Positions 52,531-56,080 of a stretch of 64,000 nt of DNA are shown here, in pieces. Both the position numbers and the translations under genes were made by a program. The notes beneath the pieces were generated by a model. It was not told the DNA's origin, made no database searches, and saw nothing but the letters and a program-made list of their open reading frames with translations. This stretch comes from an uncultured candidatus Porisulfidus sp. (GTDB taxonomy: Bacteria > Pseudomonadota > Gammaproteobacteria > Poriferisulfidales > Poriferisulfidaceae), in NCBI GenBank assembly GCA_958431155.1, contig OY288106.1, positions 1,509,888-1,573,887 on the forward strand, in the 5' to 3' direction. Positions within the stretch are counted from its first letter, which is position 1. Every line of letters starts with the position of its first letter.

Positions 52531-53610
52531 TCAATCCTCTTCAGCGGCGAGATCCGCGAGAAGCTTCTCCGCCATCCGGATCACTTCGTCCACGGTGATT
52601 AGCCCCATTACGTCTGCATCGTGGATCTTGTAGCCCCAGCGCAGGTTTGAAGCCTTCTGCCCGAACCGGTAAACCGCTGCGTCATCGTAGCGGTCCACAC
52701 ACCAGTCGAGGCTTCGGTAGGGCCCCGTGCGGCGCGGGTTGGAGTTGGCGTACAGGCCGAGGGCCGGGATGTCGGCAATTGTGGCCAGATGGATCGGGCC
52801 GGAATCCGGGCCGATCATGAATCGTGCGCGGCGCAACACCGCCAACAGTTGTTGCAGATTGGTGCGTCCTGCCATGTTGATCGGCGGGTGCCGCATTCGG
52901 GCGCACATCTCGTTTGTGAATTTCACCTGCTCAAGTTCCTTGGAGCACGTGACGACGACCCGCATGCCGTGCGCCTCGGCCAAATGATCGGCCACCCGGG
53001 CGTAGCGATCATTGCGCCAGTTGCGTTCCGGGTTTCCGGCGCAGGGGCTGATGACTACGATCGGCGGTCCGTCCGGCAGTTGTTCTTCGGCCCAGGCACG
53101 CGCCAGCGGATCTTCCGGGACATCCCAGCGGTACTGAAACCGGTCGGGCTCGATGCCGCTGGTCTTCAGGAACCCCATGAAGCCGTCGATGACATGCGGG
53201 CGGATGTCCGGGGCGATCCGGTGATTGACGAACAAGCCGTGGACTTCCCGGGCCCGGGCGCGATCGAAGCCGAGCCGCACCGGGGAGCGTATGCACAGGC
53301 TGGCCAGGCCTGCGCGCAGGGCTACTTGCATCAGGAACAGGCCGTCGAACCGGCGGCTTTCCAGGATCCGGGTCAAGTCCCGATAGGCATGCAGCCCGCG
53401 GCTCTTCCGAAAGACCACGAACTCGATTCCCTCAAGCCTCTCCACCAGCGCCACTTCGGTCTCGCCGATGATCCAAGTCAGCCGTGTATCCGGCCAGCAG
53501 TGGCGCAGGGTGTGCACCATCGGCAGCATGTGGGAGACGTCGCCGATTGCCGACAGTCGCAACAGGCAAAGGGTCTTCGGGGGATAAGATGGGCGCGGAG
53601 ATTCGCTCAT
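52531..53610 (-). CDS. Glycosyltransferase family 9, heptosyltransferase-like
   Basis: 359 residues. The two-domain GT-B fold of heptosyltransferases is seen: LCLLRLSAIGDVSHMLPMV at the start, LGFDRARAREVHG in the middle and the nucleotide-sugar block MIGPDSGPIHLATIADIPALGLYANSNP, with SPCAGNPERNW before it. The family adds heptose to Kdo in the LPS core, and a Kdo kinase and Kdo transferase are encoded nearby. WaaC-type activity is likely but WaaF/WaaQ types are not excluded. Its first 30 codons lie in a 138-bp direct repeat whose other copy is a decayed duplicate at 55.3 kb. Confidence 0.85.
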   Translation of the reverse strand: MSESPRPSYPPKTLCLLRLSAIGDVSHMLPMVHTLRHCWPDTRLTWIIGETEVALVERLEGIEFVVFRKSRGLHAYRDLTRILESRRFDGLFLMQVALRAGLASLCIRSPVRLGFDRARAREVHGLFVNHRIAPDIRPHVIDGFMGFLKTSGIEPDRFQYRWDVPEDPLARAWAEEQLPDGPPIVVISPCAGNPERNWRNDRYARVADHLAEAHGMRVVVTCSKELEQVKFTNEMCARMRHPPINMAGRTNLQQLLAVLRRARFMIGPDSGPIHLATIADIPALGLYANSNPRRTGPYRSLDWCVDRYDDAAVYRFGQKASNLRWGYKIHDADVMGLITVDEVIRMAEKLLADLAAEED

Positions 53611-53658
53611 GCAACAACGGATGCCGGAAGACGGGCGGGGTCATATCGTATACGACCC
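53521..53658. repeat. Left copy of a 138-bp direct repeat flanking higBA
   Basis: Aligned without gaps to 55261-55398 at a constant offset of 1740 bases. Hand comparison gives 8 differences, all in the first 60 bases; the other 78 are identical. This copy holds the live 5' end of the GT9 gene (minus strand) and a dead 5' end of the Kdo kinase gene (plus strand). Confidence 0.92.
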
Positions 53659-53773
53659 GGAGGGTTTTCAGGCCCATGCCGAAGTCAACCGCAAGACATC
53701 CGGGTTTGTTTTCAATCTGGGAGATCAGGTTGCGTTTTACGGAAAAACCTTTAGAATGTTACCTATTAGGTAA
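53609..53773 (+). pseudogene. 5' remnant of the Kdo kinase gene, now a 54-codon frame
   Basis: ATG 53609 begins the same 17 codons as the intact kinase at 55349 (MQQRMPEDGRGHIVYDP), then departs into 37 unrelated residues and stops at TAA 53771-53773, inside the higBA operator. The start codon overlaps the GT9 start as CATG. It retains whatever expression signals the old kinase start had, so it might be translated, but it lacks the kinase domain. Confidence 0.85.
53730..53773 (+). promoter_or_regulatory. higBA promoter with autoregulatory palindrome
   Basis: TTGCGT (53730-53735), a 16-base spacer and TAGAAT (53752-53757) form a plausible sigma-70 promoter. Directly behind it is the perfect palindrome TTACCTA-T-TAGGTAA at 53759-53773, covering the expected start of transcription. 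This is the geometry expected for repression by the HTH antitoxin. Confidence 0.65.
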
Positions 53774-53791
53774 TGAAAATGAGAAGGTATC

Positions 53792-54127
53792 TTGGATATC
53801 GCGTTTCGGAGCCGCAGGCTCAAGAGGGTTTTCGACTCAGAATCAGAGCTCCGGAAAGCCTACGGAAAACCGCGGGCGAGGAAAATCATGATGCGCCTTG
53901 CGGTTTTGAGAGCCGCCCCGAACCTAAGCTTGGTTCCGGTCAAGCCGCCGGACAGGAGACATCTCCTCAAAGGTGATCGAAGAGGCAAATTTGCAGTGGA
54001 TTTAGACCAGTCATATCGTCTTGTTTTCGAACCTGACCATGACCCGGTTATATCTACGGAGGATGGAGGAATTGATGCAACACAAGTAACCGCGATTACG
54101 ATCATCGAAGTCACTGATTATCATTGA
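53792..54127 (+). CDS. higB: RelE/ParE-superfamily toxin, HigB-like
   Basis: 111 residues from TTG 53792, with GAGAAGG at 53781-53787 giving a short spacing. FRSRRLKRVFDSESELRKAYG, the KPPDRRHLLKGDRRGKFAVDLD segment and SYRLVFEPDHD match the HigB/killer-protein family of ribosome-dependent mRNA interferases. The toxin is encoded first, as in higBA. The stop is 14 bases before the antitoxin ATG. Base composition is visibly lower in GC than the flanking envelope genes, consistent with transfer. Confidence 0.88.
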   Translation: MDIAFRSRRLKRVFDSESELRKAYGKPRARKIMMRLAVLRAAPNLSLVPVKPPDRRHLLKGDRRGKFAVDLDQSYRLVFEPDHDPVISTEDGGIDATQVTAITIIEVTDYH

Positions 54128-54141
54128 GGGGGACATTTAGC

Positions 54142-55233
54142 ATGGAGACTATGCTGCATCCATACAATCCGGACTACTCGGTTCCACCGGGGTGGGTCTT
54201 GGAGGAGCATTTGGAGGTACTGGGCATCTCACACGCCGAATTTGCACGGCGGTGCGGACGTTCATCGAAGTTGATTAGCGAAATCATTTCAGGCAAAGCT
54301 GTGCTTGCACCTAAGACGGCACTTGAGTTCGAAAGGGTCCTCGGTTTGGACGCCAGGATTTGGCTGGGAATCGAATCCAATTATCAACTTCACCGAGCAC
54401 GAGAGACGGAAAAGGAAACCACTTCGAAACGTGCCAAGTGGGCAACAAGCTTTCCGGTTAGCGAATTGGTCAGACGAGAATATATACAAAAGCCAGAATC
54501 AACTGCAGATGCGGTGTCCGAGTTACTGGCGTTCTTTGGTGTTGGCTCGATTGACGCATGGACCACGCGTTATGCGGCCGTTAATGTTGCCTATAGACAC
54601 TCTCAGAGTTTCTCAAGTGATGAAAAAGCACTAGCCACGTGGCTTCGTCTAGGTGAACTTGAGGCTGAGAACCAAAAATGTGAGGAATACAGCGAGACCC
54701 GGTTCAGGGATGCAACGCGACAGATTCGCAGTTTGACATGCGAGTCGGTAGAGAAAGCTATTCCGCATGCGACTAAGTTATGTAATCAGGCAGGAGTGGC
54801 GCTAGCACTGGTGCGTCCTTTGTCCGGCACCGCGTTGAGTGGGGCAGCTAGGTGGCTTTCTCCAAAGAAGGCAGTAATTCAGTTGAGCGCACGTCACAAG
54901 TCTGACGATCACCTTTGGTTTAGTTTCTACCACGAAGCCGCACATATCCTGCTTCACAGCAAGAAAGATATTTTTGTTGATGCTGCGAGGAACGGAGATA
55001 CAGGTGCTGAGAAAGAGGCAGACGAATGGGCGTCAAAAACTCTTGTACCTAAAACCGAATGGGAGCGATTTGTCGCAACATTTCCACGGAGCAGGAATGC
55101 AGTTGAGATATTTTCTGATGAGCAGGGAGTAGCCCCCGGCATAATTGTGGGGATGCTGCAACATCAGGGGATATTGCCTTGGACACACCTGAACGGTCTT
55201 AAAGTAAAACTAGTATGGCGGAACCCCGAATAA
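54142..55233 (+). CDS. higA: HigA-type antitoxin fused to an ImmA/IrrE-like metallopeptidase domain
   Basis: 363 residues from ATG 54142, with GAGGGGG at 54126-54132. Residues about 15-75 form the HigA helix-turn-helix (PPGWVLEEHLEVLGISHAEFARRCG). Instead of ending near residue 100 as a simple HigA does, it continues with a long linker and a C-terminal M78 peptidase-like domain with HEAAH at 264-268 and a later acidic ADEWASKTLVP segment, the usual third-ligand region. Such long antitoxins are known; the peptidase part may control antitoxin turnover or sense a signal. It represses from the 53759 palindrome by inference. Confidence 0.85.
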   Translation: METMLHPYNPDYSVPPGWVLEEHLEVLGISHAEFARRCGRSSKLISEIISGKAVLAPKTALEFERVLGLDARIWLGIESNYQLHRARETEKETTSKRAKWATSFPVSELVRREYIQKPESTADAVSELLAFFGVGSIDAWTTRYAAVNVAYRHSQSFSSDEKALATWLRLGELEAENQKCEEYSETRFRDATRQIRSLTCESVEKAIPHATKLCNQAGVALALVRPLSGTALSGAARWLSPKKAVIQLSARHKSDDHLWFSFYHEAAHILLHSKKDIFVDAARNGDTGAEKEADEWASKTLVPKTEWERFVATFPRSRNAVEIFSDEQGVAPGIIVGMLQHQGILPWTHLNGLKVKLVWRNPE

Positions 55234-55251
55234 CTTTGTAATGGCGGAGGT

Positions 55252-55350
55252 CTACCCCACCGGCAGCATGTGGGAGACATCATCAATTGCCGACAGTTGC
55301 AACGGGCAAAGGCTTTTCGGGGGATAAGATGGGCGCGGAGATTCGCTCAT
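55252..55350 (-). pseudogene. Decayed 5' remnant of the GT9 gene
   Basis: Reading left from 55350, the frame keeps MSESPRPSYPP, then diverges from the live GT9 protein at five of the first 31 residues (T13S, L16P, R18Q, G23D, M31V) and stops at TAG 55252-55254 after 32 codons. Six of the eight base changes are GC to AT. The lost Gly23 and Arg18 belong to the conserved LRLSAIGDV block, so this copy is not functional. Confidence 0.88.
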
Positions 55351-55398
55351 GCAACAACGGATGCCGGAAGACGGGCGGGGTCATATCGTATACGACCC
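55261..55398. repeat. Right copy of the 138-bp direct repeat flanking higBA
   Basis: Mate of 53521-53658. It contains the live 5' end of the Kdo kinase gene and the decayed GT9 start. All 8 differences between the copies fall in the GT9-only half, before the shared CATG start site; the kinase-start side is identical. Confidence 0.92.
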
Positions 55399-56080
55399 CG
55401 AATGGCTTTCAGAGGCGACGCCGGAACTTTTCGACCCACACCACCTGAGCGTGCAGGGAATGCTGTCCAGTTTCGGCAGTGGACGAGGCACGGTCTGGCT
55501 GTTTCGCTACGAGGGCAAAGAGTACGCATTGCGGCATTACCACCGGGGGGGCATGGTGGCGCAATTTCTGGGCGACCGCTATCTGTGGACAGGGCTGAAT
55601 CGGTCGCGTCCGGCGAAGGAGGCCAAGATTCTGCGCCAATTGGCAGGTCAGGGGCTGCCCGTGCCCAATCCGGTAGCCTGGAGGGTGACTCGCAGCGGTC
55701 TGATGTATCGCGCCGACCTGATCGTAACCCGGATTTCCCGTGCCCGTTCCCTCACCCAGATCCTGCGCGAGAGAGATTTGGCGGCGGCCGAGTGGGAGAA
55801 CCTCGGTGCACTGCTGCGCCGGTTTCATGACTTGCAGGTCTGGCATGCCGACCTCAACCTGAGCAACATCCTGTTGCGCCCCCCGGGTGATTTTTTCCTG
55901 GTTGACTTTGATCGGTGCAGAGCCCGGTTCGGGAAACTCTGGAAACAACGTAACCTCAAACGCCTCCACCGATCCTGTCTCAAGGAGCAGGCGCAGAACC
56001 GGGAGTTTCACTTCAGGGAACAGGATTTCGACACCCTGCTGCAGGGATACGCCCGAGGGGCGTCCGCGACCGATTCATAG
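55349..56080 (+). CDS. kdkA: 3-deoxy-D-manno-octulosonic acid kinase
   Basis: 243 residues. KdkA phosphorylates Kdo in the LPS inner core. It is an RIO/protein-kinase-like fold: EYALRHYHRGGM holds the ATP Lys-equivalent region, WHADLNLSNILL is the catalytic loop with Asp and Asn, and FLVDFDRCR the metal-binding DFD. It lies in an LPS cluster with GT9 and waaA. Its start region is part of the right repeat copy, which also carries 88 bases upstream that probably hold its old promoter, formerly inside the GT9 gene. Confidence 0.93.
   Translation: MQQRMPEDGRGHIVYDPEWLSEATPELFDPHHLSVQGMLSSFGSGRGTVWLFRYEGKEYALRHYHRGGMVAQFLGDRYLWTGLNRSRPAKEAKILRQLAGQGLPVPNPVAWRVTRSGLMYRADLIVTRISRARSLTQILRERDLAAAEWENLGALLRRFHDLQVWHADLNLSNILLRPPGDFFLVDFDRCRARFGKLWKQRNLKRLHRSCLKEQAQNREFHFREQDFDTLLQGYARGASATDS

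Follow-up and report, generated by a model that had tools for sequence, protein, structure and literature searches.

Related genomes indicate that chromosomal copying and recombination, not a transposon, made a repeat-bracketed higBA locus in a Porisulfidus genome

Results and Discussion

The higBA module and its bracketing repeats

We analysed a 64-kb stretch (the window) of a Porisulfidus genome (G000) that is represented by a single 1.59-Mb contig. On the left side of the locus lies a heptosyltransferase-like gene of the GT9 type (GT9w, 52531-53610, minus strand), which has orthologues in the congeners G001, G002 and G004. On the right side lies an intact kdkA gene for 3-deoxy-D-manno-octulosonic acid kinase (55349-56080, plus strand). 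Both gene identities were upheld on re-analysis. Between them, higB (53792-54127, plus strand) codes for a HigB-like putative toxin of 111 aa with a TTG start, the conserved partner of higA, and higA (54142-55233, plus strand) codes for an Xre/HigA domain fused to a C-terminal M78 peptidase with a HEAAH motif.

A repeat search of the window revealed a pair of direct repeats at 53509-53661 and 55249-55401 (153 nt, 92% identity, 13 mismatches, 1740 bp spacing), and both higB and higA lie inside the interval that they bracket. The shorter repeats of the preliminary description (53521-53658 and 55261-55398) are real and fall within this pair, with 8 mismatches in 138 positions. Each repeat is a segment, here called J, in which the start of GT9 is fused to the start of kdkA; the two start codons overlap as CATG, and the duplicated sequence is host GT9/kdkA gene sequence. 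J_left (53509-53661) contains the live GT9 start, which GT9w uses, together with a remnant of kdkA codons 1-17, i.e. about 17 codons. J_right (55249-55401) contains a GT9-start remnant of about 34 codons, including a stop codon, and the functional kdkA start. This division into one live and one remnant half per copy is as first described.

No J copy other than these two was detected in the whole 1.59-Mb genome, and within the 64-kb window J is the sole direct repeat of 40 nt or longer whose copies are spaced by a few kb. Since none of 220 control windows (1.5-kb flanks, seven other genomes) had bracketing direct repeats of at least 55 bits around a 1.5-kb gap, a chance origin of the J pair is excluded. 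A search of the window also bore out the earlier statement that neither a transposase nor terminal inverted repeats are visible: no transposase, integrase or recombinase was found in the unit, and no terminal inverted repeats were found. A transposon with terminal inverted repeats was rejected on this ground.

The leader between J_left and higB (53659-53757) has no source in the six genomes searched and bears a weak resemblance to a leader in G004 (3/500 shuffles). It is followed by an operator-like palindrome, TTACCTATTAGGTAA (53758-53772), upstream of higB. Palindromes of the same type, TTTACC-N5-GGTAAA, precede higB in several distant relatives as well, a pattern that is consistent with self-regulation.

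HigA scores 51.7 bits against TIGR02607 (antidote_HigA), above the cut-off of 47.7, and its closest match is PD-Lambda-2_B (126 bits, residues 28-342). HigB reaches 23.9 bits against PF05015, below the cut-off of 27, and has no match in NCBIfam or PADLOC; a HigB homologue directly precedes higA in most relatives. The pair thus resembles type II HigBA modules in its HigA model match, in the toxin gene coming first and in the upstream palindrome, but differs from them in the C-terminal M78 peptidase of HigA and in a HigB that stays under the Pfam cut-off. With PD-lambda-2 (PMC9519451) it shares the succession of a HigB-like protein and an Xre/HigA protein fused to a peptidase, and component B is recognizable. 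However, HigB lacks a PADLOC match, and the third gene, PD-lambda-2C, which is required for defence, is absent; kdkA comes next instead. Judged by family, the pair most likely acts as an autoregulated toxin-antitoxin or PD-lambda-2-like pair, and cells that lose the unit would then be penalised. The toxic component of PD-lambda-2 is the peptidase-fused protein, which the HigB-like protein rescues (PMC9519451), so that either higBA partner may be the toxin here. Given the likeness to PD-lambda-2 B, the label 'antitoxin' for the window HigA (54142-55233) may be wrong.

Gene order in congeners

Five genomes of the same genus were compared with G000: the close congeners G001-G004 and the distant G005. 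A tree based on kdkA, waaA and dnaK joins G000 with G004 (support 0.999), separates this pair from G001-G003 and places G005 far off. In G002, which lacks the module, the order is GT9w(-), manC(-), GT9b(+), DUF6165(+), kdkA(+), GT9b being a second GT9 gene. G001 has the same order, with an additional glycosyltransferase gene and an orphan 106-aa HigA between DUF6165 and kdkA. G003 has lost GT9w and retains manC, GT9b, DUF6165, the orphan HigA and kdkA, and contig C64 of G004 reads GT9w-manC-GT9b-DUF6165. In both G001 and G002, GT9 is separated from kdkA by at least 3.3 kb, a stretch that includes manC, GT9b and DUF6165.

All four close congeners possess these three genes. In G000, manC and DUF6165 have no match anywhere, and the only further GT9 match is a protein of 23% identity. 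Since G000 and G004 are sisters and the genes are present throughout G001-G004, G000 most likely lost manC-GT9b-DUF6165 by deletion. The site was not neutral, as three polysaccharide-related genes are gone. In outgroup families GT9 is usually divergent from and adjacent to kdkA, so that this adjacency is old in spite of the genes that intervene in close relatives.

Decayed GT9 starts are present upstream of kdkA in G001, G002 and G003 (0/300 shuffles each, compared with the native start of G001). G002 thus carries a GT9-start remnant beside kdkA in addition to its native GT9 start. The preliminary description had named a module-free relative with both repeat copies as evidence against its account, and G002 goes half of the way towards such a genome. 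Upstream of the native GT9 in G001, G002 and G004 no kdkA remnant rose above shuffles. An ancestral left J copy in these relatives was rejected for lack of a significant kdkA remnant there.

An array and a common joint in the sister genome

Contig C71 of G004 carries, in this order, a truncated higA1, a J copy (J_a), the leader, a full higBA2, a degenerate junction (J_b) and kdkA. The truncated higA is 86% identical to the window higA at the DNA level and runs into GT9 at codon ~37, as in the window, and then into the kdkA start. G000 and the separately assembled G004 thus have the right-hand joint of higA end, GT9 start and kdkA start in common, which means that the joint is older than their split and that an assembly error is unlikely. 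The full G004 higA is more distant from that of the window (71% protein identity).

The kdkA-start remnant of J_a equals both window copies over 56 bases, whereas the identity is 83% for the functional kdkA start of G004. Simple divergence does not account for this 56/56 match. In coordinates, L099:680-735 corresponds to 53588-53643 of the window, and the surroundings of these 56 bases in the kdkA remnant are about 85% identical. A homologue of the G004 leader directly follows DUF6165 on C64 (0/500 shuffles), a position that agrees with a repeated unit made up of leader, higBA and J. The GT9 remnant of G004_b was not significant by shuffles. In the assembly, C64 and C71 remain separate contigs.

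The first 196 bases of C71 (L099:1-196), to the left of the truncated higA, are 96% identical to C17:41091-41286 of the same genome. This suggests a rearrangement or a chimera left of the truncated higA; the G004 array is accordingly truncated or rearranged. Integration associated with a tRNA gene in G004 was rejected, since no tRNA was found on C71.

Mosaic structure of the left copy

The mismatches between J_left and J_right are distributed unevenly: 12 fall into 53509-53575 (67 bases), none into 53576-53658 (83 bases) and one lies at 53659. If mismatches had built up here as they did in the GT9 half, unbroken identity over 83 bases would have a probability of about 8e-8. The stretch 53576-53658 is the same in both window copies, and 56 bp of it are the same in J_a of G004. 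When J_left is compared in 17-bp bins with the native GT9 of G004, 16, 17, 16 and 16 positions match, followed by 14 and 11; compared with J_right, 13, 15, 14 and 14 positions match, followed by 17, 17, 17 and 17. J_left is a mosaic, near-native GT9 to about position 53576 and J-type beyond, and the bin matches together with the lopsided mismatches point to a crossover or gene conversion as its source. The two halves of J have separate histories, and the earlier assumption of one event for the whole repeat is not supported. The identity of the right halves could be due to gene conversion between the copies or, alternatively, to selection on the region upstream of GT9.

History of the locus

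The preliminary description had proposed that insertion of the module duplicated the GT9-kdkA junction and left both genes unharmed, and it had pointed to recombination or copying as the likely cause. The latter is supported, and the structure of the G004 array points to repeat-mediated change. As regards the insertion, the duplication of host sequence and the integrity of both starts stand, but a single harmless event in a ready-made junction is not supported, as G001-G004 carry manC, GT9b and DUF6165 at this place and G000 has lost all three.

The history that we favour, with only slight confidence over the sum of its alternatives, is that a higBA-J unit was copied at the start of kdkA and that a later crossover deleted manC-GT9b-DUF6165 in G000. 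J would have multiplied together with higBA at the 5′ end of kdkA through DNA copying or illegitimate recombination, in the form of an insertion with long target duplication or, equivalently, of a tandem duplication of the higBA-J unit. We infer that this multiplication preceded the separation of G000 and G004. The J repeats may then have allowed the array to shrink and change through homologous recombination. In G000, the native GT9 start would have recombined with the GT9-start remnant in one of the J copies, and this crossover would have placed GT9 beside the module and removed manC, GT9b and DUF6165. Every product of such exchanges retains one complete GT9 start and one kdkA start, so both genes survive and no dedicated mechanism is needed. 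The exact intermediate, with the native GT9 at its ancestral place and an array bearing a J copy left of higBA1, was seen in none of the genomes compared.

An unlikely course is a single insertion of higBA into an adjacent GT9-kdkA junction with a target duplication of 138-153 bp, followed by gene conversion that equalised the right halves. Such a junction is plausible, as outgroup genomes usually have GT9 and kdkA divergent and adjacent, and similar duplications exist at other higBA-M78 loci. Yet manC-GT9b-DUF6165 is present at this place both in the sister G004 and in the neighbouring clade G001-G003, so the empty junction has to be assumed; the starts of GT9 and kdkA are already duplicated or fused in G002, which has no module, and in G004; and the conversion is an additional event. 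We consider it distinctly unlikely that the unit arrived as a circle with J and higBA, either released from an array or present on a plasmid, which integrated at one J through a single homologous crossover. Such an integration would yield GT9-J-higBA-J-kdkA directly, arrays like that of G004 could release circles, and relatives of the window higA occur on plasmids. It predicts, however, equal divergence in both halves of J, and only one half differs; moreover, neither a circle nor a plasmid copy that contains J is known, and the plasmid relatives are less than 50% identical.

The presence of J at each end of the unit and the unusual conservation of a 56-83 bp core among the J copies might suggest an attachment site used by a recombinase acting in trans. 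This is very improbable, as the unit has no recombinase, J is accounted for as remnants of gene starts, and module relatives elsewhere are flanked by unrelated sequences of differing lengths. Assembly error had been named earlier as a possible refutation, and repeats can indeed mislead assemblers. An artefact is scarcely credible here: the higA-J joint recurs at about 85% identity in the independently assembled G004, G000 is a single contig, and its two copies differ at 13 sites. The copying of a higBA-J unit followed by a deleting crossover remains our preferred history, and the relatives indicate that chromosomal copying and recombination, not a transposon, made the locus.

Comparison with restriction-modification systems

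Chromosomal toxin-antitoxin modules get into genomes even where no mobile element is visible. In the case of restriction-modification systems, the proposal of a transposase-free route, insertion with long target duplication, dates from 2000, and passages of PMC3874152, PMC3031569 and PMC1643837, citing Nobusato et al. 2000 and Furuta et al. 2010, describe target duplications that are long (about 100 bp) and variable. The G000 locus shares with these cases an addiction-type pair, long direct copies of host sequence of the variable kind (~100 bp) and the absence of a transposase; the repeats likewise permit amplification via unequal crossing-over. The insert lies between direct copies of host sequence (153 nt, 92%), a length within the range of tens to hundreds of bp that marks such insertions, and transposase, integrase and terminal inverted repeats are all missing. 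The differences are that the insert in G000 consists of toxin-antitoxin genes, that the empty site is not observed here and that J_left is a later recombinant tied to the loss of three genes. In G002, the module-free relative, 3.3 kb of other genes separate GT9 and kdkA, and adjacency is found only in distant outgroups. In the literature searched, in which subscription papers were mostly out of reach, we found no account of type II toxin-antitoxin modules inserted with a long target duplication. Together with the G004 array and loci in other families, the locus offers a toxin-antitoxin counterpart of the restriction-modification case that is testable in culturable bacteria.

Other higBA-M78 loci

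The preliminary description had suggested searching for the module in duplicated host sequence elsewhere, and a few related loci, small in number, are indeed bracketed. We gathered higBA-M78 loci from 12 plasmids and, within the class, from 369 genomes and applied a threshold of 55 bits to bracketing repeats with flanks of 1.5 kb or 3.6 kb; the controls were overlapping random chromosomal windows, not accessory islands, from seven of the genomes. When the flanks were 1.5 kb long, direct repeats that reached 55 bits enclosed 5 of 17 chromosomal loci, namely the window, G004, G128 (L154), G154 (L155) and G166 (L156), as against 0/220 controls. The repeat of G166 was set aside, as it was read from the sequence to lie at a REP-type transposase gene. 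Without the window, G004 and this transposase case, the count is 2/14 vs 0/220 (p = 0.003); with the plasmids added and the same exclusions, it is 2/26 (p = 0.011). Flanks of 3.6 kb add G366 (L159, hdrB) and G129 (L167, P-type ATPase), and the controls then show one repeat (in two overlapping windows).

Each bracketed locus pairs a truncated copy of a gene with a longer copy on the opposite side. L159 has a truncated hdrB with an internal deletion and L167 a truncated P-type ATPase gene, the longer or full copies lying opposite the higBA stretch. None of the 12 plasmid relatives reached the 55-bit threshold; one of them, L201, has a repeat of 28 bp. In G154 (L155, 40 bp) and in L201 it is the start of an hsdS-like gene that has been duplicated; in both, this gene directly follows higA and the copy of its start lies upstream of higB.

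Because the controls were random and overlapping and the numbers small, the repeat-bracketed loci beyond the window are a lead, no proof, as to generality. It is conceivable, though doubtful, that the Xre-peptidase higBA family spreads and multiplies without a transposase, by a copying process that inserts at the ends of genes, creates duplications of tens to hundreds of bp and leaves an intact beside a truncated target copy, with the toxin holding the unit in place and the repeats letting arrays form and contract.

Five metagenome-type contigs from unrelated genomes (L035, L036, L130, L132 and L136) start within higB or right at its edge, as though assemblies broke at this point. On the plasmids (L194-L205), the neighbours of higBA-M78 are often ThiF/multiubiquitin/DUF6527, restriction-modification or Fic genes, a setting like that of defence islands.
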